Of a stretch of 64,000 nt of DNA, positions 140 to 57,755 are shown in pieces. This DNA is from Cytidiella melzeri. Its lineage: Eukaryota > Basidiomycota > Agaricomycetes > Polyporales > Irpicaceae. Positions within the stretch are counted from its first letter, which is position 1. Each line of letters begins with the position of its first letter. A program made the translations under genes and the position numbers. The notes beneath the pieces are model-generated. The model worked only from the letters and a program-made list of their open reading frames with translations, made no database searches and had not been told where the DNA came from. The stretch spans positions 1-64,000 of the forward strand of contig JABYQR010000237.1 in NCBI GenBank assembly GCA_022592445.1. The letters are read 5' to 3'.

Positions 140-303
140 TTACAATTCCTGAAGAATGAAGAAGAATTGTTCCAGTGTGCTCCAGCACATTGATGCCTTT
201 CCAGATGTGACCTTTTTGTCCCCAAAAGTGTGGGAATCTGATGGCAGAATACAGAAAGTAACAGTGTCAATAACAAAACAATGAATACAGCTGATGGCAT
301 CAC
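133..303 (-). other. Short ORF with signal-peptide-like N-terminus inside HX
   Basis: A minus-strand ORF of about 55 residues begins [20 protein letters not shown], a strongly hydrophobic start like a signal peptide, followed by HQIPTL and a basic stretch. Nearly the same reading frame is preserved in HX copies at 50789-50950 (+), 51683-51919 (-) and, more diverged, 54069-54293 (-). A divergent ORF starting MASHWPCYQP begins close to the same point in other copies (50586-50798 -, 51910-52122 +, 40642-40854 +). Preservation may simply reflect recent copying. No function can be assigned. Confidence 0.25.
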
Positions 304-739
304 ACTGCCCTTGTTGTTAGCCCTTTATAACTTTGTATCAGATCACTTTGCAATTGAAATACAGTTTTGGATTATTACAGACTGCATATGGGTATAACGC
401 TGTACATATAAGACACCATTGGATAGCCCTATCTTGTGGCAACATCCTGGTACAAACATCCTGTCAATTAAAGAGGTATTGAGCAAGTTATGGCCAGTCT
501 ACTGAAAAATGTCATCCAGACTCAGATTCAAACTCCACTCCTGCTGGCAAATGATGTCAAATTCTGGTCAGGTACATGTGCAGCAATCTACAGACATTGC
601 TTGCTCTCTGAACAAGGAATACAATAAGAAGACATGCCACACACAGCATTGGCTTTGAGCAAGAACTACCAGTACTTTGGAAGCTCACTACAAAGTCTCA
701 ACCCCTACATTCTTGGACAATGTAAATTTGTGGCTGCAT

Positions 740-1400
740 CAGCAGTGATTACTGCATCTGATTGATCCACAAAGTTTTGCACCTGTTAGTTGCTCTCTAA
801 GCAGCAGTTACAATCAGAACACAGCCTGTGGCAGTTCCAATGGGGGTGAGGCAGTTCAGACATCAACAGGACATGGTTGCATCAGCAGCAAGCACTGTGT
901 CAGATTGTTGCACAAAGTTTCACAACCATCAGTGGCTCTATCAGCAGGAATGACAACCAGAACACAGCCTGTGACAGCTCTGATAGGGGTGAGGCAGTGC
1001 AGACTTCAACAGGACATATGTAACATGTTCTAGCAATTGATCTAAAGCTGTGGCAGTTTCAAGGGAGGTGAGGCAGTTCAGACATCAACAGGACATAATT
1101 GCATCGCCATAGAGCACTGTCTTTGATTCTTTCATACAGTTTCACAACCACCAGTTGCTCTATAAGCATGAGTTACAATCAGAATACAACCTGTCGCAGT
1201 TCTAGTGGGCTGATGCAGTTCAGACATCAACAGGACGTGGTTGCATCACCATAGAGCCCTGCCTTTGATTCTTTCACACAGTCTCACAACCACTAGTGGC
1301 TTGATAAGCAGAAGTTACAATCAGAACACAGCCTGTGGCAGCTCCAATGGGGGCAATGCAGTGCAGACATCAACAGGACACATGTAACATGTTCTAGCAA
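740..1400 (+). repeat. Internal ~140-bp tandem array of HX copy A
   Basis: Five spaced recurrences of CATCAACAGGAC-type cores (about 863, 1003, 1083, 1223, 1368), each preceded in the fuller units by an ACAATCAGAACACAGCC-like segment. Full units are 140-147 bp; one unit is shortened. The same unit recurs at 41080-42160, 48010-49470 (inverted), 52340-52920, 53870-54040 and 54600-54850. Confidence 0.8.
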
Positions 1401-2001
1401 TTGATCTCATGAGACACCCTTAAGCCCTTCATTCTTGAAGCACGTAATTTTCCAGCATCAGCAGTGAACACTGCACAAGATTAATGACACAACAATAGAT
1501 GAAGCCCCTGGCTACCATTGGTTACTACCTTCATGAATGTATGGCTCCTTTCCCGCAACCAAACTTATCAATTCTGGTACAGTCACTGTATCCCAGATCA
1601 AGTTGCCTATCAAAGGTGTCACCAATAGCAAAATGCCTGTAATACAGTCAATATTCATGACCAGATGGCTTGGCAATGTCCCTACCAAGAACAGAGTTGT
1701 TTACTGGGGTTATTTTGGTTGGGGTTCTTTTTGGTAACAAAATCACAGGTGCAATTAACTATTCCATGCTATATGATTTATTCAATTTGCTATCAATAAC
1801 ATAATCACTTATAAACCTGCTCCTGCAGTTTACCATATTGTATCTAGATTATGTAACATAGTTTAACACCATTAAGAAGAAGACGCATGTCAAACACTTT
1901 TTATCTCCATGCCCTACTCCACAAGTTTGTTTCAATTCTGTACTCACACCCATCATTGCAATTCAAACAATACAGCACAGTCCCTCTTATTTCATGAATG
2001 A

Positions 2002-2189
2002 TTGTGTGCTCCAGTGAAGACAAACCACCAACTTACTATACATTACTCATTGCAGAAGCTATTCCCAACAAAACTACTTGTTCAGGCTGCTACCAGCACC
2101 AAGTTTACTTACAAATCTGGCTCAAAAAGTAATATTTCATTCAGTCTTCAGGAATTGTACTCGCTGCTTGCCGGCCTTGCTAATGCTAG
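2002..2189 (+). other. Short conserved ORF at the 3' end of HX
   Basis: An open frame starting MCAPVKTNHQLTIHYS runs through the 3' inverted repeat to the element end. Equivalent frames lie at 47261-47455 (-) and 53520-53774 (+). The encoded segment is Ser/Lys/Thr rich with no known domain. It may be fortuitous, because the end sequences are conserved for transposition anyway. Confidence 0.2.
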
Positions 2190-11894: not shown

Positions 11895-12690
11895 TGTCAC
11901 GGAGACAGAGCTCGACGTAGCAACTAGGGACACGGAGTGGAAGACGACAACGAGGTGGTGGCAGGCATATAGCACAATGCTCTCACCAACTATAAACCTT
12001 ATACAGGTATCTAGCCCAGTAAAGACCAAGTTAGTATTGGGTACTACCAGCTATGTAGTACAGAGGGGGTTTGCTTACCTAGCCCAGTAAAGACCAAAGG
12101 TCGAGATGGGGGCTAGGAGCGTACATGTAGCAGTATATATAGACTTCAGGGACCTGCGCACAGACCATGTTGAGGGCAGGCTTTGCAAGAAGCCGTGTGA
12201 ACGAAGAACAAAAGAACTACCTAAAGGAGAACAATAGCTATTGTCTAGACCTTGCCAAGAACTCTACCCGTGAGAGAATCTATCTAAAAGGAGACCAACT
12301 ATTGTATTCCATTCCCACACCTGTGAGAACATCCTTCCATAAAGAGAACAATAGGGAAAGAACAAAAGGAGCCCATGTGGACGGTATCTATGACCTCAAA
12401 CCCTAGCTATGGGCTGAGCCATGTGCCTGTAGCCATGTGGTCTTACTTAAGCTAAGTCACATGCCAGTGTGACGTAGTAGCAAGTAATGTGACCGTGTGG
12501 AGCGTCTAAGCCACGTGATACGGGCGCTTAATAGACGTGCAAAGGGAGTTTATGCAGAGAAGGTTGCAGCTGAGCTGCAGCCCGGAGTTTTACAGATAAA
12601 AACAAGAGGTAAATTGCGAAAATTAAGGGCTAGTCAGGCCATCCATGACAGTCTGCAAGGTATAACCATTGTCCTGTGGTTAATAGAATT
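11895..12690 (+). mobile_element. Element X, copy 1 (LTR-like)
   Basis: About 0.8 kb that recurs inverted at 35880-36650 and, diverged, at 39470-39950. It contains two copies of TAGCCCAGTAAAGACCAA (about 12008 and 12080), then a TATA-like GCAGTATATATAGAC at about 12131, GAACAATAG words and a conserved CACGTG-containing part. Promoter-like structure and size suggest an LTR, but no TG...CA ends or target duplication were established. It replaces the 3' end of the chitinase gene at its right edge. Confidence 0.45.
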
Positions 12691-32262: not shown

Positions 32263-32618
32263 TGGACTGTGGCTTGCCGGACTGGTGTTAGGAGGCAAAA
32301 GAGTAGGATTGGGGGGAGGAGAGGACGGAGAAGGAGAAGGAGAAGCCGGCCGGAGTTCTCGCCTGTGCGTCCTCCCCGCACACATGTCGACATTACTGAC
32401 TTCTGGGCACCAGCAGCACCCATTCCTTTCGTGACCAACCATCCGCAAACACAACAACAACAACAACCGGCCAGTCCTTTTGTGTCCCCTCCAACTCCTC
32501 CCAATATCTCAGCCAGTCCTTTCTCGCCCCCGCCTCCACCCCATTCATTCAACTTCACTCTCCCCGATATCCCTCCCTCAACCTCACGAAGTCGTCCCGG
32601 AACTGGATCTCACAGCCG

Positions 32619-33024
32619 TCCTACTACAGCATCCTCCGGAACTACCACTCTCCCGCCCATCTCTGCCGTCGTCGCCTCATCCCTCTCTTTGCCGCATCCA
32701 CCACCCTCGCTCCTCTTCCCGCAGCAGCGTGAGCAGCAGCAACAACAACACCACGGCGGTCTCGCCTACCACTTTGTCCAGGCTCGTCATTGGCGCGGAG
32801 CAACTCGCTCTCGACGATCCGTCCTACTACAGCATCCTCCGGAACCACCACTCTCCCGCCCATCTCTGCCATTGTCGCCTCATCCCTCTCTTTGCCGCAT
32901 CCACCACCCTCGCTTTCCTTTCTGCAGCAGCGTGAGCAGCAGCAACAACAACACCACGGCGGCCTTGCCTACCACTTCGTCCGGGCTCGTCATTGGCGCA
33001 AAGCAACTCGCTCTCAACGCTCCG
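32619..33024 (+). repeat. ~203-bp tandem duplication inside the hAT
   Basis: Two consecutive copies beginning TCCTACTACAGCATCCTCCG (32619 and 32822), including GAGCAGCAGCAACAACAACA and CACCACGGCGG, ending GCAACTCGCTCTC. A few per cent divergence. Just upstream of the captured CFT2 exon. Confidence 0.8.
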
Positions 33025-35880: not shown

Positions 35881-36650
35881 TGTCATGGATGGCCTGACTA
35901 GCCCTTAATTTTCGCAATTTACCTCTTGTTTTTATCTGTAAAACTCCGGGCTGCAGCTCAGTTGCAACCTTTCCTACATAAACTCCTTTGCACGTCTATT
36001 AAGCGCCCGTATCACGTGGCTTAGATGCTCCACACGGTCACATTACTTGCTACTACGTCACACTGGCATGTGACTTAGCTTAAGTAAGACCACATGGCTA
36101 CAAGCACATGGCTCAGCCCATAGCTAGGGTTTGACGTCATAGATACTGTCCACATGGGCTCCTTATTTGTTCTTTCCCTATTGTTCTCTTTATGGAAGGA
36201 TGTTCTCACAGGTGTGGGAATGGAATACAATAGTTGGTCTCCTTTTAGATAGATTCTCTCACGAGTAGAGTTCTTGGCAAGGACTAGACAATAGCTATTG
36301 TTCTCTTTTAGGTAGTTCTTTTGTTCTTCGTTCACACGGCTTCTTGCAAAGCCTGCCCTCAACATGGTCTGTGCGCAGGTCCCTGAAGTCTATATATACT
36401 GCTGCATGTACGCTCCTAGCCCCCCATCTCGACCTCTTGGTCTTTACTGGGCTAGGTAAGCAACCCCCTCTTGTACTACATAGCTGGTAGTAACAATACT
36501 AACTTGGTCTTTACTGGGCTAGGTACTTGTATAAAGTCTGATAGCTGGTGAGAGCACTGTGCTACACGCCTGCCACCACCTCCTCGTTGATATCCACACT
36601 GTGTCCCTGTCTGTCACGTCGAGCCCCGTCTCCGTGTCAGCTGGCTGGAC
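35880..36650 (-). mobile_element. Element X, copy 2 (inverted)
   Basis: Close reverse complement of 11895-12660: it shares GGGCTGCAGCTCAGTTGCAA, the CACGTG-containing part, the TATATATACTGC box near 36395 and two TGGTCTTTACTGGGCTAGGT copies (36439 and 36504). Boundaries are set by similarity only. Confidence 0.5.
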
Positions 36651-37369: not shown

Positions 37370-38519
37370 TCCTATTATACAAAGATGGCGTATTGATGGC
37401 TAACACCTCTTCAGAACAAACAAATCAGACCATCTGGCATGTTCCGTCTGTGGTACACCTAGAGGTGAAAGTGACTGGGAAGGGGTCTCCGAATAACATG
37501 GCTTTTGTATTGTACTATGAGTGTTGAATTCACAATTTGTTTGTTTATGTAAATTGCTACTGAGAACCTAAAGGTCTTGCCTCAAGAAAGAAGTGGCATC
37601 CTTACCTGGTAAGCACAGCAAATCGACGTGGACTCTGAATGAACAGGTGCTCACAGCATTTGCATACTGGAGTAGCACCTTTATCTATGCGGTGATTGGC
37701 ATGTTTGGTCTTTCAACAGTCAATGTCAACAGATAATCAGCAAAGCATCAGTTCAGGTCCCAATACAAGTTGAAGAGATTGAGGTCATTCACATACTCAT
37801 GAATTCTTGGACTGTACCATTCACATTGTATGTGCACTTTTCCTTATCTACACACTGTATATTGTCTCGCCATGATCACACCACTCCACTACTCCCCCCC
37901 CCCCTCTCCCCCTCCCCTCTCCCCTTCTCTCGCTCTTTCTATGCCTCTTTCACCCTTGCCCATCCAGCCCCTTCCCCCACCTTTCCTGTCCCTATCCTGT
38001 CGTAGCCCTTGCCCCATCCCTGTATTTTCTACCTAGTGTGCCTGATGTGCCTGACTATCTCACATTTCAATCTATTCTTGTTGCTGTCTCAACCCAAAAC
38101 ATTTTTCTTTGCTGGGGATTTCCTTTTTGGTAACTAGTATTCTTCTCTGCATCATCATCTGTAGATAATACTATCTTTTAATTGTAAGCAGCTCTCTGAC
38201 TTGACAACTCGTCTTTTGACAATATTCGGTCTTAACACATCTGAGCAGTTGCCTGCACTGGAATGATTCTACTTCATTCTTCAGGAATTGTCAAGGTGCC
38301 CATATAGAAACTTTTGGAAGGGTAGTAGGAAAATCAATGTGCTGCCATCAATTCATGCATTACACAACAACAGCAATCGTTTATTGTTTTGAGTACATCA
38401 ATTCACTAGAAAGTATACCTACACCGTAAGCTTTTGTCACAACAAAATCTGGTACAATGCTATGAAATGAACTGGAACAATCACTTTACAGTAATTATCA
38501 CCATACAAGTATACTTGTC
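37370..38519. other. No recognisable gene
   Basis: Contains a C/T-rich stretch (37890-37990) and, at 38245-38300, a short inverted piece of the HX 5' end (ATTCTACTTCATTCTTCAGG). Nothing coding could be supported. Confidence 0.35.
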
Positions 38520-40488: not shown

Positions 40489-41079
40489 TTACAATTCCTG
40501 AAGAATGAAGAAGAATTGTTCCAGTATGCTCCAGCACCTTGATGCCTTTTCAGATGTGACTTTTTTGTCCTGGAAGTGTGGGAATTTGATGGCAGAATAC
40601 AGACAGCAACAGTGTCAATAACAAAACAATGAACACAGCTGATGGCATCAAACTGGCCTTGTTATCAGCCCTTTATAACTTGTTATCAGATCACTTTTGC
40701 AATCAAAATGCACTTTTTGATTTTTACAGACTGCATATGGGTACAAATCTGTACATATAATACACCATTGGATAGCACTGGCTTGTGGCAACATCCTGGT
40801 ACAAACACCCTGTCAATTGAAGTGGAATTGAGCATGTTATGGCCAGTCAACTGAACAAAGTCATCCAGACTCAGATTCAAACTCCACTCCTGCTGGCAAA
40901 TGAGGTCAAGCTCTGGGCAGGTTGATGTGCAGCAATATACAGACATTGCTTGCTCTCTGAACAAGGAATACAATAAGAAGACATGCCACACATAGTGTTG
41001 GCTCTGAGCAAGAATTGCGAGTACTTTGGAAGCTAAGTACAAATTCTCCACCCCTACATTCTTGGACAATGTAAATTTG

Positions 41080-42160
41080 TGGCTGCATCAGCAGTGGGTG
41101 CTGCATCTGATTGTTCCACAAGTTTCACAACTGTTAATTGCTCTCTAAGCAGGAGTTACAATCAGAACACAGCCTGTGGCAGTTCCAATGGGGGTGAGGC
41201 AGCTCAGACATCAACAGGACATGGATGCATCAGCAGCAAGCACTGCGTCAGATTGTTACACAAAGTTTCACTGAGTTCTAAGCAGGAGTTACAGCTGTGT
41301 CAGTTTCAATGGGGGTGAGGCAGTTCAGGCATTCAATTGGTTCACAAGTTCCACAGTAACTACTCTCTATGCAGAAGTTACAATCAGAACACAATTTGTG
41401 GCAGTTCCAATAGGGGTGATGCAGCTTAGACATCAACAGGACATGGTTGCATCAGCAGCAACCACTGTGTCGGATTGTTGCACAAAGTATCACAGCCATT
41501 AATTGCTCTCCAAGGAGGAATTAAAATCAGAACATAGCCTGTGGCAGCTCTAGTGGGGGTGAGGTAGCGCAGATATTAGCTGGATGTGGTTTCATCAGCA
41601 GCCAGCACTGCATTCAATCAGTCCACAAAGTTTCAATACTGCTGAGTTCCAAGCAGGAGTTACAGCTGTGGCAGGTTCAATGGGGGTGAAGAAGTTCAGA
41701 CATCCACACTGCATGGGTGCATTGGCAGCAAGCACTGCATTCAATTGGTCCGCAAGGTTTCACAACCACAACTCTCTAAGCAGAAGTTACAATCAGAACA
41801 CAATCTGTGGCAGTTCCAATAGGGGTGATGCAGCTCAGACATCAACAGGACATGGTTGCATCAGCCACAACCACTCCGTCGGATTGTTGCACAAAGTTTC
41901 ACCACCATGAGTTGCTCTCTAAGGAGGACTTAAAATCCAAACATAGCCTGTGGCAGTTCTAATGTGGCTGAAGCAGTTCAGACATCAACAGGATGTGGTT
42001 GCGTCAGCATAAAGCACTGCCTTTGATTCTTCCATACAGTTTCACAACCACCAGTTGCTCTATAAGCAGGAGTTACAATCAGAACACAGCCTGTGGCAGC
42101 TCCAATGGGGGTGAGGCAGTGCAGACATCAACAGGACACATGTAACATGTTCTACCAATT
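41080..42160 (+). repeat. ~140-bp tandem array of HX copy B
   Basis: Seven or eight units marked by CATCAACAGGAC cores at about 41209, 41428, 41837, 41980 and 42127 plus diverged units near 41330, 41568 and 41698. Spacing of adjacent good units is 140-147 bp. Confidence 0.8.
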
Positions 42161-42553
42161 GATCTCATGAGACACCCTCCAACCCTTCATTCTTGAAGCA
42201 AGTAATTTTGTAGAATCAGCAGTGAACACTGCACAAGATCAATGACAAGATGGATGAAGCCCCTTGCTACCATTAGGGGAGTTCAGAGTAGGTTGATTAC
42301 CAGTGATTCCGGGTCTGATTAAGTGGTGATTTTTCTTGCCGTCAATTTTCTTAATCAGACTATTAATCAGAGTGCACTCTGAACACCCCATCACACAGTT
42401 GCTGATTCTGCCTGATTCTCCAACACAACATAAGTAATTCACTCTAACACAACATAAGTAATTCCCTTATTATCTCAATTTGGTCTTTTTTTATTTATGA
42501 AAAAATCAATGTTATTGAACGTCGGCGGAGCCAGAGACGGTACAAACATAAAA

Positions 42554-43299: not shown

Positions 43300-43786
43300 C
43301 TAAGCCACGTATGTATGCAACCAATGGAGAGCAAGTTCTGAGTGATAGAGTTGAGAAAGAGCTGTACGCACCTTTGCGAAAATGTGCACCTCAAACTCTA
43401 CGTCTCCCATGCAAGGTGTCTTGTTGTCGTCAGAGTTGACGTTGGAGGGGACAGCCGAGGCGGTGTATGGGAGGGAGGCGGTGGTGAATGAGGAGAGGGC
43501 GGCACGCTGGGCCCAGACAAGCTTGATGAGTTTGTCTTCAAAGTTGCGGCAGGTGGGGATGATGTTGTCGAGGTTGTAGGCCCAGACAACGAGAACCCGT
43601 TCGTCCCTCTGAAGGACGTGTGAGTGCGAGATACGAGCTGGGAATGAGAGACAGACGTACGATGAAGGTGCCACACTGCTCCTTGTCTGCGCGGGGCAGC
43701 CAGGACATGCTGTCGAGGACCTGGATACGATTGTCATTGTCCACGTAGATTGCGTCTGGTGGGATGTTGTACGGTGACGGTCTCAA
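43300..43786 (-). pseudogene. Unidentified host-like gene fragment (possibly glycosyltransferase family 2)
   Basis: Two exons join in frame across a ~63-nt GTACGT...TTCAG intron (about 43598-43660): IYVDNDNRIQVLDSMSWLPR and ADKEQCGTFIV, then RDERVLVVWAYNLDNIIPTC and RNFEDKLIKLVWAQR. The style resembles N-terminal regions of fungal GT2-type enzymes, but I am not sure of the family. It continues to CMGDVEFEVHIFAKVRTALS. It lies inside the TIR element next to the FAD-like fragment, so both may be captured. Confidence 0.35.
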
Positions 43787-44200
43787 CGGCGACGCTGCTC
43801 GTGACCATAGAGGGAGAATGGGGCGGTGGGGTCAACAGCGCGGCCTGGTTGAAGGTGTGTGTAACCTTCGTCGCCGTCGCAGATGAGGCCTGGAGCGGGT
43901 GGGATGTCGTGCGGTGACGGTCTCGACGGCGACGCTGCTCGTGACCATAGAGGGAGAATAGGGCGGTGGGGTCAACAGCGCGGCCTCGTTGAAGGTGTGT
44001 GTAACCTTTGTCGCCGTCGCGGATGAGGCCTGAAGCGGGTGGGATGTCGTACGGTGACGGTCTTGACGGCGGCGCTGCTCGTGACCCCGAGTATGTTGAG
44101 TGTGAGTGTAGGTGTTGTATGTGCCTACTTGCATAGAGGGAGAATGGGGCAGTGCGGTCAACAGTGCGGCCCCGTTGAAGGTGTTGAGCATGCTCAAGTC
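43757..44200 (-). repeat. 141-bp tandem repeat, about three units
   Basis: Units begin near 43758, 43899 and 44040 with GGGATGTCGTACGGTGACGG; each contains GCGACGCTGCTCGTGACC and GTTGAAGGTGTGTG. The third is longer through an inserted stretch. Open on the minus strand because of the repeat length (a multiple of three), not because of a recognised protein. Confidence 0.75.
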
Positions 44201-46437: not shown

Positions 46438-48009
46438 ATGGTGATAGCGGCGAGTGGTGGAGTGAGGATCAAAGAGGGGCGGCGGACAGTTGTTTTCAAA
46501 AGAGGGGTATACATGTTTTGTTATCATGGTAACTAAATTTGTTATAAGTAAGTACCAAGTAAGTACAGGAGAGCGAGAATCGAGGCTTGATTCTCGTCGT
46601 CCCTCCTCCAGAGGAGGGACAACAAGGGAGCGCGATTAAGCATGATTCCCGTTAATCGCGCGAATAATCACGGAGTAGGACCCCAGACCACCGCTGCAGA
46701 ATCAAACCAGAATCAGACCCAAGAATCAACCTTAATCGTCCACTCTGAACGGCCCTATTGGTGACTACCTTCATCAATGTATGGCTCCTTTTCCTGCAAT
46801 CAAACTTATCAATTGTAGTACAGTCACTTTATCCCGGATTCAGTTGCCTATCAAAGGTGTCACCAGTAGCAAATGCCTGTAATACAGTCAATATTCATGA
46901 CCAGAGTACTTGGCAGGATCCTTACTAGGAACAGAGTTGTTTACTGAGGTTCTGTTTGGTAACAAAGTCACAGGTGCAATCAACTATTTCACGCTATATG
47001 ATTTATTCAATTTGCTATCAATAACATAATCACTTGTAGCCCTGCTCCTGCAGTTTACCAAATTTTATCTAGATTCTCTAATATAGTTCAACACCATTAA
47101 GAAGAAGACGCATGTCAAACAATCTTTATCTCCATGCTCTACTCCACAAACTTGTTTTAATTCTGTGCTCACAGCCATTGTAGCACTTCAAACAATACAG
47201 CACATTCCCTCTTCTTTCATGAATGATTGTGTGCTCCAGTGAAGACCAACCACCAACTTCCTAAACACTAGTGTTAGCAAGGCCGGCAAGCATCAAGTAC
47301 AATTCCTGAGGATTGAATGAAATATTACTTTTTGGGCAAGATTTGTAAGTAAACTTGGTGCTGGCAGAAGCCTGAACAGGTAATTTTGGTGGGAGTAGCT
47401 TTTCCAATGAGTAATGTATAGTAAGTTGGTGGTTTGTCTTTACAGGAGCACACAATCATTCATGAAAATGAGGGACTATGCTGTATTGTTTGAAGTGCAA
47501 CAATGGGTGTGAGTACAGAATTGAAACAAGTTTGTGGAGTAGAGCATGGAGATAAAGAGTGTTTGACATGCATCTTCTTCTTAATGGTGTTGAACTATGT
47601 TAAATAATCTAGATACAATTTGGCAAACTGCAGGAGCAGAGCTACAAGTGATTTTGTTATTGATAGCAAATTGAATAAATCATATAGCATGCATTAGTTA
47701 ATTGCACCTGTGACTTTGTTATCACAAAGAACCTCTGTAAACAATTCTGTGCCTGGTAAGGACCTTGCCAAGCCATCTGGTCATCAATATTGACTGAATT
47801 ATAGGCATTTGCTATTGGTGACACCTTTGATAGGCAACTTGATCTGGGATAAAGTGACTGTACTACAATTGATAAATTTGGTTGTGGGAACAGGAGCCAT
47901 ACATTGATGAAGGTAGTCACCAATGGTAGCAAGGAGCTCCATCTATCTTGTCATTAATCTTGTGCAGTGTTCACTGCTGATGCTAGAAAATTGATTGCTT
48001 CAACAATGA

Positions 48010-49470
48010 AGAGCTTGAGGGTGTCTCATTGGATCAATTGCTGAAACATGTTACATGTGTCCTGTTGATGTCTGCACTGCCTCACCCCATTGGAGCTGCC
48101 ACAGGCTGAGTTCTGATTTTAACTCCTGCTTATAGAGCAACTAGTGGTTGTGAAACTGTGTGGAAGAATCAAAGGCAGTGCTCTATGGTGATGCAACCAT
48201 GTTCTGTTGATGTCTGAACTGCATCAGCCCCACTAGAACTGCCACAGGCTGTGTTGTGATTGTAACTCCTCCTTAGAGAGCAATTAATGGTTGTGAATTT
48301 TTGTGGAACAATCTGATGCAGTAGTTGCTGCTGATGCAACCACAATCTGAGCTGCATCACCCCTATTGGAACTGCCACAGACTGTGTTCTGATTGTAACT
48401 CCTGCTTAGGGAGAAGTGTTTGTGAAACCTTGTGACCAATCGAATGCAGTGCTTGCTGCCAACGCAACCATGCACTTTTGATGTCTGAATTGCCTCACCC
48501 CCAATGGAACTGCCACAGTTGTAACTCTTGCTTAGAGAGTAGTGGTTGTGAAACTTAGTGGACCAATTGAATGCAGCGCTGGCTGCTGAGAAAACCACGT
48601 CCAGCTGATATCTGCGCTACCTCACGCCCATTAGAGCTGTCAAAGGCTGTGTTCTGATTGTATCTCCTACTTGTGGAGAAACTGGTGGTTGTGAAACTGT
48701 ATGGGAAAATCATAGGCAGTGCTCTATGCTAATGCAACCACGTCCTGTTGATGTCTCAACTGTACCAGCCCCACCAGAACTGCCACAGGCTGTGTGCTGA
48801 TTGTAACTCCTGCTTATAGAGTAACTGATGGTTGTGAAACTGTATGGAAGAATCGAAGGCAGTGCTCTATGCTGATGCAACCACGTCCTGTTCATGTTTG
48901 AACTGCCTCAGCCAGATCAGAACCACCACAGGCTATTTTCTGATTGTGACCCCTCCTGAGAGAGTGATTAATGGTTGTGAAACTTTGTGGAACAATCTGA
49001 TGCAGTGCTTGCTGCTGATGCAACCATGTCCTGTTGATGTCTGAGCTGCATCACCCCCATTGGAACTGCCACAGGCTGTGTTCTGATTGTAACTCATGCT
49101 TATAGAGCAGCTGGTGGTTGTGAGACCGCATGGAAGAATCAAAGGCAGTGCTCTATGCTGATGAAACCACATCCTGTTGATGTCTCAACTGTATCAGCCC
49201 CACTAGAACTTCCACAGGTTGTATTTAGATTGGAACTCCTCCTTAGAGAGCAACCAATGGTTGTGAACATTTGTGCAACAATCCAATGCATTGCTTGCTG
49301 CTGATGCAACCATGTCCTGTTGATGTCTGAACTGCCTCATCCCCATTGAACTGCCACAGGCTGTGTTCTGATTGTAACTCCTGCTTTGAGAGCAACTAAC
49401 AGTTGTGAAACTTTGTGGAACAATCAGATGCAGTACTCACTGCTGATGCAGCTAGAAATTTACATTGTCC
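48010..49470 (-). repeat. ~140-bp tandem array of HX copy D
   Basis: About ten units, inverted (GTCCTGTTGATGTCTGAACT cores, e.g. near 48060, 48200, 48480, 48740, 48890, 49030, 49170, 49320). Units alternate in quality; some are shortened to ~125 bp. This is the largest array in the window. Confidence 0.8.
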
Positions 49471-49601
49471 AAGAATGTAGGGGTTGAGAATTTGTAGTTA
49501 GCTTCCAAAGTACTGGTGATTCTTGCTCAGAGCCAATACTATGTGTGGCATGTCTTCCAATCGTATTCCTTGTTCAGAGAGCAAGCAATGTCTGTAGATT
49601 G

Positions 49602-50498
49602 TAGTCTCGGAACCAGCCGTTCGCGTTTCCTCAATTGGAACTGCGGAGTTCCAAGAAAACAATGAGGCGAGAAAGGCAAACGTCTGGTGAATTTGGTATG
49701 AGGCGCGTACCGATCAATTGCGCGTGACGCGAATGAAGGCTTTCTCGAATCTGTTGACCTTATTAGTGCCCAATCTTGTTAACGCTGTTCTTTACTGCCA
49801 GTGTCACTTGGCAATACTACTGTTTTTGCACGAGTCATCTTGCGCTCCCTCATACAATTATGTCATGCCTTCCCCTCCGTTTGATGTACTCGACAATGGC
49901 GACGACGAACGTCACCCAGCAGAAGTTGACCCAATCTCAGAAGAGGACGCTGCGCGCATTGACGCGGACTTTAACAATCCTTGCAGCCCCCTAGAACAAA
50001 CGAACGCCTTAATAACTATAAAGAGAGGAGGAGAGGAGGAGAGAAGACAGAGAGGATGCAAGAGCTGGCACAAGAGTGGAAGCGGTCGGCCTAGGCGACG
50101 CGTTGTGGACGCGACCTGGTGGCATCGCTCGTCCATTAGCTCAGGCGCGGTGGGTACGAAGTGTAAATGAATATTGCTTTTCTCAGTTCTTATGCTACTC
50201 ACTCAAAACATGCATTCAAGAAAAGCTATGTACTGCAGCTACCTACGGAAATGCTGAACAGAGACAGTCATGAACGAATGGTAAGCTACATCAAGTTTCG
50301 TTTCGGGCCACGCTGTGTCGCTGGCCGCGACATTGGACTCGACGTGCGACCTGATTTGGTCACGTACGATTGATCGGTACGCACCCCATACCAATTACAC
50401 CAGACGTCCAGGCGTGCGGTCTCTTTGTCTTTTTGGAACTCCGCAAGCCTGGAAAAGGAAGGAGCGCGGCAACTTCCGAATCGTCTGGTTCGAGACTA
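49602..50498. mobile_element. 897-bp TIR element with 9-bp duplication (MULE-like)
   Basis: Ends TAGTCTCGGAACCAG and, inverted, TAGTCTCGAACCAG; flanked by TGTAGATTG at 49593-49601 and 50499-50507, present once in other HX copies. A 9-bp duplication is characteristic of Mutator-like elements; hAT would give 8. The interior is more GC-rich than the host sequence and has open frames (e.g. 49865-50170, acidic SEEDAARIDADFNNP) with no recognised domain. Non-autonomous. Confidence 0.8.
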
Positions 50499-51099
50499 TG
50501 TAGATTGCTGCACATGCACCTAACCAGAATTTGACATCATTTGCCAGCAGGAGTGGAGTTTATATCTGAGTCTAGATAACGTTTTTCAGTAGACTGGCCA
50601 TAACTTGCTCAATTCCACTTCAATTGACTGGATGTATGTACCAGGATGTTGCCACAAGCCAGGGCTATCCAATGGTGTATTATATGTACAGATTTGTACC
50701 CATATGCAGTCTGTAAAAATCACAAACTGCATTTTGATTGCAAAAGTGATCTGATACAAAGTTATAAAGGGCTGATAACAAGGCCAGTGTGATGCCATTA
50801 GCTATATTCATTGTTTTGTTATTGACACTGTTACTGTCTGTATTCTGCCATCAAATTCCCACACTTTGGGGGACAAAAAGGTCACATCTGAAAAGGCATC
50901 AAAGTGCTGGAGCACACTGGAACAATTCTTTCTCATTCTTGAGAAATTGTAATTACTCATTGAAGAAGCTATTCCCAACAAAATTACTTGTCCAGGCTGC
51001 TACCAGCACAAAGTTTACTCACAAATCTGGCTCAAAAAGTAACATTTCATTCAATCTTCAGGAATTGTACTTGCCACTTGCCGGCCTTGCTAACGCTAG

Positions 51100-51345: not shown

Positions 51346-54190
51346 TTACAATTACTGAAGAATGAGGAAGAATTGCTCCAGTGTGCACCAGCACATTGAT
51401 GTTTTGTCAGATGTGACCCTCTCATCTCCAAATCATGGGAATATGATGGCAAATACAAAAACTAACAACTAATATCAAATCACCCAACAGAGTTGAAGGC
51501 ATTACACTAGCTTTGTATGAGATCACTTTCTGCAATGAAGAATACCATTCCTGATTTTGAGGGACTGTATGTAGGCACAAAGCTGGAAGCTTAGTTACAT
51601 CACCAGATAGCCTGCTCTTGTGCCAACATCCTGGGCCAGAATTCTTGTCAATTCATGTGGGATCGAGCAAGGTATGGCCAATTTACTGACACAAATCACT
51701 CTGACTCAGGTCAAAACACCACTCTTGTACTTGCTGACACCTAAGCAAAATGATGTTACAATTACTGAAGAATGAAGAAGAATTGTTCCAGTGTGCTCCA
51801 GCGCATTGATGCCTTTTCAGATGTGACCTTGTTGTCCCCCAAAGTGTGGGAATCTGATGGCAGAATACAGAAAGTAACAGTGTCAATAACAAAACAATGA
51901 ATACAGCTAATGGCATCACACTGGCCTTGTTATCAGCCCTTTATAACTTTGTATCAGATCACTTTTGCAATCAAAATGCAGTTTTTGATTTTTACAGACT
52001 GCATATGGGTACAAATCTGTACATATAAGACACCATTGGATAGCCCTGTCTTGTGGCAACATCCTGATACATACATCCAGTCAATTGAAGTGGAATTGAG
52101 CAAGTTATGGCCAGTCTACTGAAAAAAGTTATCTAGACTCAGATTCAAACTCCACTCCTGCTGGCAAATGATGTCAAATTCTGGTTAGGTGCATGTGCAG
52201 CAATCTACAGACATTGCTTGCTTTCTGAACAAGGAATACGATTGGAAGACATGCCACACATAGTATTGGCTCTGAGCAAGAATCACCAGTACTTTGGAAG
52301 CTAACTACAAATTCTCAACCCCTACATTCTTGATTTCTGGCTGCATCAGCAGTGAGTACTGCATCTGATTGTTCCACAAAGTTTTGCACCTGTTAATTGC
52401 TCTCTAAGCAGCAGTTACAATCAGAACACAGCCTGTGGCAGTTACAATGGGGGTGAGGCAGTTCAGACATCAACATTACGAGGTTGCATTGGCAGCAAGC
52501 ACTTCGTTTAATTGGTTCACAAGGTTTCACAACCACTACTCTCTAAGCAGCAGTTACAATCAGAACACAGTCTGTGGCAGTTCCAATAGGGTGATGCAGC
52601 TCAGAGATCAACAGGACATGATTGCATCAGCAGCAAGCACTGTATCAGATTGTTCTACAAAGTTTCACAGCCATTAGTTGCTCTCTAAGGAGGAGTTGCA
52701 ATCAGAACACAGCCTGTGGCAGCTCCAGTGGGGCTGATGCAGTTCAGACATCGACAGGACGTGGTTGCATCACCATAGAGCACTGCCTTTGACTCTTCCA
52801 TACAGTTTCCAAACCACTAGTTGCTCTATAAGTAGGAGTTACAATCAGAACCCAGCATGTGGCAGCTCCAATGAGGGTGAGGCAGTGCAGACATCAACAG
52901 GACACATGTAACATGTTCTAGCAATTGATCTAATGGGACACCCTCAAGCTCTTCATTGTTGAAGCAATCAATTTTCTAGCATAAGCAGTGAGCACTGCAC
53001 AAGTTTAATGACAAGATAGATGAAGCCCCTTGCTACTATTGGTGACCACCTATATCAATGTATGGCTCCTTTTCCCACAACTAAACTTATCAATTGTAGT
53101 ACAGTCACTTTATCCTAAATCAAGTTGCCTTTGAAAGGTGTCACCAATAGCAAATGCCTGTCATACAGTCAATATTCATGACCAGATGGCTTGGCAAGAC
53201 CCTTACCAGGAACCGAATTGTTTACTGATGTTTGTTTTGGTAACAGAGTCACAGGTGCTATGAACTATTTCATGCTATATGATTTATTCAATTTGCCCTC
53301 AATAACATAATCACTTGTAACCCTGCTCCTGCAGTTTACCATATTTCATCTGAATTATTTAACGTAGTTCAACACCATTAAGAAAAAGACTCATGTCCAA
53401 CAATCTTTATTTCCATGCTCTACTTCACAAACCTGTTTTAACTCTGTACTCACACCCATTGTTGCACTTCAAGCAATACATCACAGTCCCTCTCCTTTCA
53501 TGAATGGTTATGTGCTCCAGTGAAGACAAACCACCAACTTACTATACATTACTCATTGAAAAAGCTATTCCCAACAAAATTACTTGTTCAGGCTGCTACC
53601 AGCACCAAGTTTACTGACAAATATGGCTCAAAGAGTAATATTTCATTCACTCTTCAGGCATTGTCCTCGCCGCTTGCCAGCCTTGCTAATGCTAGGCTAG
53701 GCACTCAAGTGTATTGTAGACATGTAGGGCAATTTACACACATTGCTTGCTGGTTGCACAAGAATCACCATTAGAACCCAATGCACAAATATGAGGAAAA
53801 ATGACCATTATTGTGGGAGCAGATTATAAGACAATCCCAACTACTCTGCTCCTGGAGGATGAAAATTCTTGCTTGTATCAGCAGTGAGCACTGCAACTGA
53901 TTTTTCCACAAAGTTCCACAAACATTAGTTGCTCTCTGAACCAGGAGTTACCATCAGAACACAGCATGTGGCAGTTCAGATAAGGATGAGGCAGTTCAGA
54001 CATCAACAAGACACATGTAACATGTTCTGAGACCAGATCTTAGCATGAGATCTCCAACCCCTTGGTTCTTAGAGCATGTGCATTATGTTTTGCTCCAGCA
54101 AATGAGTGCTACGATTGAGTGTTGCATCAGCAGTAAACACTGCACAAGATTGGTGATAAGATATATGAAGCCCCTTGCTACCATGCTTTT
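51346..54190 (+). mobile_element. HX copy E (older), split by copy C
   Basis: Starts TTACAATTACTGAAGAATG; 51346-51755 is a diverged version of the HX 5' region (AGATGTGACC, AACATCCTGGGCC, GGTATGGCCA). After copy C it resumes at 53696 with GTAGACATG, ACATTGCTTGCT and array-like units at 53870-54040, ending near GCCCCTTGCTACCAT at about 54183. Confidence 0.55.
51756..53695 (+). mobile_element. HX copy C
   Basis: A 1,940-bp copy: 5' TTACAATTACTGAAG, array with four units (52340-52920), 3' inverted repeat CTTCAGGCATTGTC, and end GCTAATGCTAG. Unlike copies A, B and D, the base after CTAG is G. It is inserted in copy E. Confidence 0.7.
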
Positions 54191-55200
54191 TCAGATGTGA
54201 CCCTTTTATGCCCCAAAGTGTGGGAATTTGATGGCAGAATACAGACAGTAACAGTCTCAACATCAAAGCAATGATTGCAGTGGATGGCATCACACTGACT
54301 TTGTTATGAGCTCTTCAAAATTTCCCATCAGATCACTCTTGCAATCAAAATGCACTTCTTGATTTTTACAGACTGCATATAAGTACAAATTTGTGGAAAT
54401 TATACATTTTTGGATAGCCCTATCTTTTGGCAACATCCTAGTCCAAACATACTGTCAACTGAAGTGGAACTGAGCAAGTTATGGCCAGTCTACTGAAAGA
54501 AGTCACTCAGACTCAGATTCAAACTCCACTCTTGCTGGCACATGATGTCAAATTATGGTTGAATACATGTACAGCAATCTACTGAAGTTTCACCACCATT
54601 AGTTGATCTCTAAACAGGAGTCTCACAGCCTGCGACAGTTCCCTTGGAGGTGAGGCAGTTCAGACATCAACAGTATGTGGTTGCATCAGCAGCAAGCACT
54701 GCATCTAATTGTTCCACAAGGTTTGACAACCATTAGTTGCTCTCTAAGCAGGAGTTACAATCACAACACAGCCTGTGGCAGTTCCAACAGGGATGGAGCA
54801 GTTCAGACATCAACAGGACACATGTTACATGTTCTGGGAGTGGATCTATTGAGACACCCTCAGGCCCTTTATTCTTGAAGTAAGTAGTTTTCTGGCATCG
54901 GCAGTGAGTTCTGATGAGCACCACAAGTGATTGTTGCATCAGCAGTGAATACTGCACAAGATTAATGATAACATATATGAAGCCCCTCACTACCATTGGT
55001 GACTACCTTTATCAATGTATCGCTCTTTTTTCCGCAAGGAAATTTCTCAACTGTAGTACAATCACTTTATTGCAGATGAAGTTGCTTATCAAAGGTGTCA
55101 CCAATAACAAATGCTTTTACTACCATCAATATTCATGGCCAGATTACTTGGCAAGGTCCTTACCAGGAACAACTAGTTGTAGTGGGGCCGGCATGCAGCA
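54183..55200 (+). mobile_element. HX fragments F
   Basis: Starts internally (TTTTTCAGATGTGACCC), then runs through the TATGGCCAGTCTACTGAA block, an array of about two units (54600-54850), and the AATGTATCGCTCTTTTTTCC part, ending at about 55215 with ACAATTCCTGAA in an altered orientation next to ACTAGTTGTAGTGGGGCCGG. Rearranged and incomplete. Confidence 0.5.
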
Positions 55201-55790
55201 AATACAATTCCTGAACTTATCAACTTGTATCTTCTGCTTCACCTATGAAACTCTGAAGAAAGATAATGTGGCGGATTTGATTGTTTCATCACATATGTTT
55301 GAGTGAATCATTGTGCTATATTTACTTCCACAGTTCAGCTTTGTTTGACAACAAGGGGGCATATGCACAGCATAACTACAAGAGTTGTGTGGAGACTTAA
55401 TATATCTGTCAACATGACCTTATGGTGATCAATGGCACCTTGAAGATACTGTGACATTACAAATGTGCTTGGAGTCACCCACAACATCTGTTGTGGTTCA
55501 AAACTGTATTGACCTTGGAAATGAACTTTCCTAGTAACTTTCATAAGTAACATTCCTGATAGCACTCAGTCTCATAGACTACCTTTTCATTAGTGATAAT
55601 CCTATGACTGGCTGGATTGGTTGCAGTATCTTCTGTTGGTAGCTTGTACTGGAATGCCTGACTGCAAAGATACTGTTGTTACAGGTAGACATTGCCCAAT
55701 TTACTTTGTCTGGAATGTTCACTGCCAAAATTAACCTGCCTAGAACAATACTGGTATAATTTACTAGCAACAACTTCAACTTTCACAACC
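55200..55790. other. No recognisable gene
   Basis: AT-rich. Short open frames on both strands have no family resemblance. Confidence 0.35.
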
Positions 55791-57060
55791 AAAAATCCCG
55801 GAATACTTACTTTTACGAGTGCAATTTTGTTATTGGTAAGAACTTTTGTGACCTTATTATCCTTACCTTTATATGCAATCTTGCAACTGGTTAGAGCTTT
55901 TGTTGCTTACTTGGCCATAACATTTACTTCCAGAAGGAATTGTGAACCCTCACCTTTACAAGTCACTTTTTTACTGGTAACAGTTTTTGTTTCTGATTGC
56001 AAGATATACTTCTTTTTAAGCAATTCTGGTACTGGCAACAACTTTTCTGACTAGCTTGCCCAGAATAATAATTTAAACAATGTTTTTAAGCAGTATTGTT
56101 GCTGGTAACAGCTTTCATTGATAAAATGCACAGAATGTTCAATTTTCATCGATTTTTGATCTGTAATGTTCTTCAGAATTCTGACTGATAACCATTTTTT
56201 GTCTAATTTAAACAGAATAATGACTTGTATATTCTTCTTACCAGTAACAACTTTTTTTACTAACTTGCCTGGAATGGTTGAAGGTATCAGTATTTTTCCT
56301 GAGAACAGCTCCTATTACTACCTTGCCCACAATACTTAATTGTCTATCATTTCAGATTACTTTATCATTTGAGACAGCTTTTGTTACTAACATGACCAAA
56401 ACACTTAATGTTTGATAGTTTTGAATCCTCACTGTCATCAGTAGTTTGGGTACCAATAACCAATTTTGTTCTCAATTTAACTGGAATACTTACTTTGATA
56501 AGTCAATTCATCAGCAATGACAGCTTTCTCACCTAATTGCACAAAACACTGATTTTTTAGAAGTCAATTTGAACTCTTACCTTTGCAAGTAGTTTGGTCA
56601 GCAATTCTCACTTTTGTTACAAACTTGGGGGAAATACTTAATTTGATGAAGAATTTTATCAGTTTTTTACAGCTTGTGCAACTAACTGGCCCATATTACT
56701 TACTTCTATGATTGATTCTGAATTCTCACTTGTACTAGTAATGTATTGCTTATAATGCTTATCTACCAGGAATACTTACTTTAGGACGTGATTCTGGTAC
56801 TGGTAACAACTTTCATTAGTAACTTGCGGGACATACTTACTTTGATAAGTAATCTGTTACTGGTAACAACTTTCTTAGTAACTTGTCAGGAATACTTAAT
56901 TCAATAAACAATTTTGTTACCAGTAACAACATTCATGATCAACATGCTCAGAATACATACTTTGGAAAGTAATTTTGTTGCTGGTACCATCTTTCAATAC
57001 AATCATGCTCAGGAATAATGACACTCTCATGAGTAATTTTGTTAGTTGTAACTGATCTTG
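55790..57060 (+). repeat. Degenerate ~62-bp tandem repeat region
   Basis: Poorly conserved units of the form GGTAACAACTTT...AGTAACTTG...GGAATACTTACTTTGATAAG. The best-preserved units are near 56803, 56866 and 56928 (62-63 bp apart). Related sequence flanks the DDE transposon at 57750-57836 and 61416-61500, so the region once extended across that insertion. No coding potential. Confidence 0.6.
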
Positions 57061-57146
57061 CTACCATTGTGCCTGTATTGCAAAAATCAAATTATAACTC
57101 AGTGGGTTGCAAAGTCACAGTGTTGCCGGGCCATGTTTGTCATGCT

Positions 57147-57203
57147 GATGACCTGAGAAAGTGTCTTTTTTTTTTCTCAAAAAAGACACTTTCTCAGGTC
57201 ATC
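57147..57203. repeat. Near-perfect hairpin, 24-bp arms
   Basis: Arms 57147-57170 and 57180-57203 are exact inverted repeats (left arm starts GATGACCTGAGAAAGTGTC and ends in T residues), separated by a 9-base T/C-rich loop. Confidence 0.9.
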
Positions 57204-57250
57204 TGGCTTACTAAAACACCTGCAGGTGAGGGAGCTGACTGGTTTGAACC
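57204..57250 (+). promoter_or_regulatory. Pol III A/B-box-like pair
   Basis: TGGCTTACTAA at about 57205 resembles an A box and GGTTTGAACCC at about 57240 fits a B box (GGTTYGANNCC); spacing is about 35 bp. No tRNA clover-leaf can be folded. It may be a SINE head. Confidence 0.25.
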
Positions 57251-57359
57251 CTGCCATGCACATTTTTTTGCCCTGGCTGTTATGTTAAGTAGGCTTTGTG
57301 TAATTGTTACACACATACATAAGTGTTATTGATGGGAGTATGAAACTGCTGAGATATGC

Positions 57360-57755
57360 TTCACAAGTCTGTAACAAAAGGGATCAGCTGAGTTGCAATT
57401 TGACTTTGAGCAACCTTTTCCAGTAATCTGGCCATGAATTCCTCAATTCTGCACCAAATTGAAAACGTTTGTTACCAGTCCATTGACAAGACATAGGGCT
57501 ATCCAAAGGCATATGATTTGGACCCATATGTGCCCATTTTCCAGCTGTAGAATCAGAGACTGTATTTCGATTGAAAAAATGGGATCTATCACACACTTTT
57601 GAAGGGCTGGTAACAAAGCTAACATAGTTGCATCAATAGTGTATTCCTCATCAATTTCCACACTTTGTGAGACAGTTGCGCTACATCTACAGGGACATCA
57701 AAGCAGTCGCCTGCACTGGAACAATTCTACTTCATTCTTCAGGAATTGTAACTTT
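57360..57755 (-). mobile_element. Diverged HX 5' fragment
   Basis: Inverted: CTTCATTCTTCAGGAATTGT at 57728-57750 is the 5' end, followed outward by a degenerate version of the region around CCATTGACAAGACATAGGG. It ends at 57752 where the 62-bp repeat sequence resumes. Confidence 0.55.

Follow-up and report, generated by a model that had tools for sequence, protein, structure and literature searches.

HX, a probable Helitron2-type non-autonomous transposon in the fungus Cytidiella melzeri

A high-copy family of repeated elements in the genome of the polypore Cytidiella melzeri, here called HX, inserts between (A/T)(A/G) and T without duplicating its target. With good confidence, HX belongs to the Helitron superfamily as a non-autonomous rolling-circle transposon, and its asymmetric inverted repeats are of the Helitron2 type. 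On the best reading it is a Helitron2-like non-autonomous element whose ends resemble those of the proto-Helentron of Phytophthora. The family was recognised in a stretch of 64,000 nucleotides (contig JABYQR010000237.1 of assembly GCA_022592445.1, positions 1 to 64,000), hereafter the window, and was followed through the rest of the assembly.

Structure and copies of HX

Copy A is 2050 bp long (140..2189, + strand) and sits in a Gypsy-type retrotransposon. Its 5' terminus, TTACAATTCCTGAAG (140..154, +), is at the same time its 5' asymmetric inverted repeat; the 3' subterminal inverted repeat, CTTCAGGAATTGTA (2146..2159, +), stands 30 bp before the element end, and the 3' terminus is CTAG (2186..2189, +), followed by a host T. 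The initial annotation had described this terminus, its inverse about 30 bp inside the 3' end and the CTAG end, and all three were confirmed at these coordinates. The distance of about 30 bp is kept by the 3' inverted repeat in all 24 aligned 3'-end variants. Copy A is non-coding: the longest start-to-stop frame wholly inside it has 66 aa.

The central array announced as ~140 bp consists of ~143-bp repeats (731..1380, +; segments 731-1017 and 1048-1380). It is imperfect, with about four units in copy A and from ~2.8 to 14.2 units across 30 copies, in which it starts near base 590 of the element, except in copy D, which carries an insertion. The array looks like passenger DNA, with a unit number that shifts between lineages.

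With up to two mismatches allowed, the 15-mer TTACAATTCCTGAAG matched the window 12 times, where 0.26 matches would be expected. With up to one mismatch, it matched the whole genome (49.69 Mb, 731 contigs) 819 times, and the reversed control matched nowhere; since this count pools 5' ends and 3' inverted repeats, it corresponds to about 400 elements if most have both. Copy numbers from the whole-element search are lower bounds, because 40 of 859 candidates were scored. No match to the HX 5' 20-mer was found in IMG/VR.

Four window copies, A to D, had been said to share their ends. The observation holds; copy B is incomplete within the window, and the CTAG of copy C precedes G and not T. Copy B is split by copy D into a left piece (46757..47267, +; HX 1378 to about 1903) and a right piece that reaches its 3' CTAG (50953..51099, +). 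Copy C spans 1940 bp (51756..53695, +); as GCTAGG comes after its CTAG, the precise position of its 3' end is less certain. Copy D lies on the opposite strand (47268..50952, -), with a span of 3685 bp that includes its inner insertion. A further copy, E, is also incomplete within the window, where its 5' part is present (40489..42274, +; HX 1-1380).

The copies are similar to one another: over the first 580 bp, the median pairwise identity of 29 copies (copy D excluded) was 0.93. The closest pair, L056 and L048, both 2796 long, reached 0.997 identity over 580 bp with unrelated flanks. Two copies 99.7% alike in different flanks indicate that copying has been recent.

Other repeats were seen in the window. 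Isolated HX-type 5' ends occur at 38293 (-) and 7473 (+), with ~57 and ~114 bp of similarity, and no 3' end was recognised for either. Tandem repeats at 32616-33024 (203 bp, 2.0 copies) and 43758-44086 (140 bp, 2.3 copies), with units 92-94% alike, were not HX-like on comparison with HX.

A second family, HX2, is represented by a 2579-bp element (55173..57751, -). Its 5' end matches that of HX over 38 bp at 97%, with one further stretch at 67%, and it has the same 3' inverted repeat and CTAG as HX; its content is mostly different, includes a ~61-bp repeat array and looks non-coding. Its flanks, TTAGTAATGAAAG and TTGTTCCTGGTA, resemble its own inner repeat (TTACTAATGAAAG TTGTTACCAGTA) and, read by eye, hold no duplication. 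Genome matches numbered 32 with the HX2 3' end and 41 with a similar end found on contig C448. A third set of 3' ends (L055 near 245, and L061, - strand, near 350) has the same inverted repeat with an extra T after it, and ends in GCAAG or GCATG before T.

Target preference and empty sites

From 62 genomic loci and the window we gathered 44 different 5' ends and 36 different 3' ends, which gave 30 pairs; the criterion for an end was similarity to HX, so that diverged ends are missed. At position -2 the host base was T in 21 cases, A in 21 and C in 2 (A/T in 42/44), and at position -1 it was G in 25, A in 14, T in 5 and never C (A/G in 39/44). Among the 35 3' ends with a full flank, CTAG was followed by T in 30, A in 3 and G in 2, and the next base could be any. 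Binomial probabilities against the window composition were 6e-10 (position -2), 7e-8 (position -1) and 4e-13 (after CTAG), for copies that are related and not fully independent. The second base of the 5' end was T in 43/44, among ends picked by HX similarity. Because G stands before T in 25/44 and A in 14/44, the target is R^T and not A^T. Bounds shifted by one base (TACAA...CTAGT) could fit the data equally well, and the same one-base boundary ambiguity is described for Fusarium elements (PMC5148889).

The comparison of ends with empty sites, recommended in the initial annotation, was carried out by aligning the joined flanks of the 30 pairs to all fetched sequence. For 17/30 pairs no site was present in that sequence, and 13/30 aligned over the junction. 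Ten of these 13 alignments were gap-free within 20 bases per side, one of the ten being only 72% identical. The other three comprised one with the terminal G lost, one ambiguous and one spurious. The ambiguous case (p16) is a true homologous site, locally diverged, and the filled site is 3 bases shorter at the junction.

The insertion of copy D into copy B (p29), read from the start as lacking a duplication, is one of the ten gap-free joins. For copy A, the joined 200-base flank matched related copies of Gypsy, with 81-88% identity in the best matches. After two self rows and one short non-crossing row were dropped from 40 rows, 37 crossed the junction, and query and genome were of exactly equal length in 26 of them, in agreement with the duplication-free insertion into Gypsy first suggested there; in the remaining 11 the length differed by -29 to +27 bases, and in 8 of these the difference was 1-3 bases. 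An exact pattern for the copy A empty site had 0 matches. Agreement between the two flanks over lengths 1-8 was close to that obtained by re-pairing (6 vs 5.17 at length 1, 4 vs 3.38 at length 2, and 0 beyond). Gap-free junctions, equal-length Gypsy rows and flank agreement as given by re-pairing thus all argue that no target duplication is made.

The ends of HX and known elements

In the description of Helitron2 by Bao and Jurka, the 5' inverted repeat lies 0-2 bp from the end, the 3' one ~20-30 bp inside, and a 3' hairpin comes just after the 3' repeat (PMC3627910). The inverted repeats of HX lie at 0-1 bp and 30 bp, within this asymmetric arrangement. Helitron2 further resembles HX in the T at the 5' end; it has a 5' hairpin using the repeat, to which a weak possible hairpin corresponds in HX. 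Unlike HX, the Chlamydomonas members insert after TTTT (PMC3627910).

Both terminal hairpins of HX are weak. The possible 5' hairpin of copy A (142..170, +; arms 142-148 and 164-170, 7 bp) uses the 5' inverted repeat and has a folding energy of -3.2 kcal/mol (z -0.92), which is not significant, as 41/200 shuffles fold as well. At least 5 perfect pairs were present in 43/45 HX-like variants, which is no independent test, as the variants were chosen by HX similarity. At the 3' end, copy A has a possible short stem (2163..2175, +; 2163-2166 with 2172-2175, 5-nt loop). The commonest HX 3' end can likewise form a 4-bp stem, closed by a loop of 5 nt and located directly inside the inverted repeat, with z -0.24 (+1.48 for copy A); the 3' fold suggested in the initial annotation thus returned a 4-bp stem with folding no better than shuffles. 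Over 24 distinct 3' ends, 92.7% of cells were paired and 3 cells changed on both sides; these ends include HX2, C448 and two of the third set, the filter required part of the stem region, and three were added by eye. The covariation score was reached by 30/500 shuffles, and a slide of -3 scores higher. The evidence for a paired 3' stem is therefore suggestive at best.

Among known elements, proto-Helentron-Pi of Phytophthora infestans has a 5' TT, a 3' CTAG and no target duplication, as HX does, and inserts between A and T, whereas the target of HX is R^T (PMC4067079). It differs from HX in being ~14 kb long, encoding Rep/helicase and belonging to an oomycete, and its section in that paper does not report a central array or subterminal inverted repeats, both of which are present in HX (PMC4067079). 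In the same source, the autonomous partner of HINEs is marked by an AP endonuclease domain, and the proto-Helentron by a Helentron-clade Rep/helicase that lacks the endonuclease.

At the level of kind, Helitron2-like elements are already described in fungi, of which the initial annotation was not aware: FoHeli1-5 and FoHeliNA1/2 in Fusarium oxysporum (PMC5148889) and Helitron2 in Agaricus bisporus (PMC12730594). The Fusarium elements share with HX the asymmetric terminal inverted repeats and the existence of non-autonomous forms, their 3' inverted repeat lies ~20-50 bp inside, and pre-insertion sites were reconstructed (PMC5148889). Unlike HX, they end in TCAG...ATTTT or TGCCT...CTCCTGT, FoHeli1/2 target TNAT^A, no central array is described for them in the text consulted, their non-autonomous forms are low in copy number, and the host is an ascomycete (PMC5148889).

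HELPO1/HELPO2 and helpo1.3 of Pleurotus ostreatus resemble HX in their basidiomycete host, 3' CT(A/T)G and AT target (PMC4289320). The non-autonomous helpo1.3 is ~1.5 kb long, and a satellite stretch, with a repeat number, and inverted repeats are indicated for it in the legend of Figure 4 (PMC4289320). In that source, as far as seen, HELPO elements have a 5' T(C/G), a canonical 3' hairpin, about a dozen copies and a captured gene, and their inverted repeats flank captured genes, in contrast to the asymmetric ends of HX (PMC4289320).

The HINE/DINE-1 elements and oyster Cg_HINE are, like HX, non-autonomous, with subterminal inverted repeats, central tandem repeats and no duplication (PMC4067079, PMC7492417); the most abundant Cg_HINE monomers are 140-180 bp long (PMC7492417). 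They differ from HX in inserting into TT or T-rich DNA, in a clear 3' palindrome and in their animal hosts (PMC4067079, PMC7492417). Helentron/HINE insertion occurs within TT (PMC4067079), whereas base -1 of HX is T in only 5/44. The Helentron-associated DINE-1/HINE reading first given to HX is thus partly supported: for its non-coding content, asymmetric inverted ends, central repeats and lack of duplication, though not as stated for the target, which is not TT, or for the 3' stem, which is weak. In its end structure and inner array HX is like elements known chiefly from insects and oysters, a kind that is already known; in the open-access texts and listings consulted, no fungal element combining asymmetric inverted ends with a 3-14-unit array was found.

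HX might instead derive from a canonical Helitron1, such as the RepHel element on contigs C201/C188 of the same genome, and use its enzyme, the inverted repeat being incidental. The 3' CTAG fits the CTRR of Helitron1, and R^T is near A^T. Nevertheless, HX begins with TT and not TC, its target is not A^T, and the 14-nt subterminal inverted repeat recurs in HX, HX2 and the third set of 3' ends, all of which makes such an origin improbable. C201/C188 looks like a canonical Helitron by its sequence, with a 5' TC after A; the region C201:106400-117800 has no HX end, and HX has no real similarity to the element (best match 19 bp, E 0.24). On these grounds it was also rejected as a partner of HX.

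Inverted repeats without a duplication could also belong to a terminal-inverted-repeat (DDE) element from a superfamily that makes none. This is very unlikely, given that the repeat reaches the terminus at the 5' end but stops ~30 bp short of it in 24 3'-end variants, and that the 3' CTAG and the R^T target resemble those of Helitrons. Movement by a tyrosine recombinase (Crypton-like), in which a circle would integrate where it shares a short sequence with the target, would account for the lack of duplication and the shared T at the junction, and is the least credible origin, since just one base is shared there and since Cryptons are not known to have subterminal inverted repeats or CTAG ends.

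Candidate partners and proposed mechanism

RepHel genes are present in the genome that carries HX: the Helitron Rep domain had 12 matches on 10 contigs. A Rep/helicase element sharing the ends of HX, whose search had been proposed at the outset, was not found around the Reps of C201/C188, C364 or C448.

C364, a member of the C364/C86/C57/C625/C605 Rep family, was set aside as a partner: C364:21500-34500 showed no convincing HX end, and the flanks searched shared no perfect inverted repeat of more than 10 bases. A Pfam scan of 1023 aa of its protein gave only DUF6570 and Helitron_like_N. From C364:26487 onward (L034), this RepHel carries DUF6570 and, ahead of the helicase, a stretch absent from the Pfam scan that we take to be chromodomain-like. 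Among the 120 relatives of the C364 protein listed, the 7 named by organism are Piloderma, Pleurotus, Athelia, Armillaria, Gymnopilus, Tricholomella (all Agaricomycetes) and one bacterial MAG.

On C448, a broken Rep is followed 6 kb downstream by an HX2-like 3' end of matching orientation; no PIF1 helicase match was found on the contig, nor a 5' end in the 2.5 kb read upstream of the Rep. A 757-bp stretch that the C448 Rep region has in common with the window belongs to a distinct dispersed repeat. This ~757-bp repeat, LTR-like by look, is at 11895-12650 and 35886-36640 of the window, precedes the C448 Rep and also follows the C364 helicase.

C45 and C610 encode both Rep and helicase. In Rep motif 2, the published residue is S for Helentron and L for Helitron (PMC4067079). 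C45 reads RYEWQDRGSGHVHG (RGS), C201 reads IEFQKRGLPHMH, and C364 reads VEQQGRLTLHMH, which fits neither Helentron nor Helitron cleanly. As C45 carries the published Helentron residue, we infer from this motif that the C45/C610 RepHel is the most likely partner of HX. An HX 5' end is present at C45:103532-103546 (-), ~6 kb from the C45 helicase; it was discounted as evidence of partnership, because ~0.3 matches to the 15-mer are expected in any 20 kb.

A RepHel provided in trans would nick HX at its 5' TT end, then peel off and replicate one strand. Copying would stop at the 3' signal, made of the inverted repeat, possibly the short stem, and CTAG; pairing between the two inverted repeats may also play a part. 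The freed strand, possibly circular, would then be joined to host DNA at a site with (A/T)(A/G) before it and T after it. No head-to-tail joined HX ends were found in the genome by exact pattern.

More tentatively, HX, HX2 and the third set could belong to a single fungal lineage in which features of Helitron1 (3' CTAG, R^T) and of Helitron2 (asymmetric inverted repeats) are combined. This lineage would be moved by the C45/C610 RepHel, which is of Helentron type, and would have gained HINE-like central arrays, with units of nucleosome-like length, independently of animals. Confirmation of the partner would place the HINE-like architecture in a mushroom-type fungus. HX would then represent a lineage active in recent times whose ends are intermediate between those of canonical Helitrons and Helentrons, and it could be tested which changed first among the ends, the inverted repeats and the choice of target. 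Arrays of ~140-180 bp recur in non-autonomous Helitron2 of animals and now in a fungus, which raises the question of whether the array has a function.

Elsewhere in the genome, on C86, an HX fragment (from HX 437 on) and a PIF1-type helicase match meet at base 54969 (C86:54445-54969).
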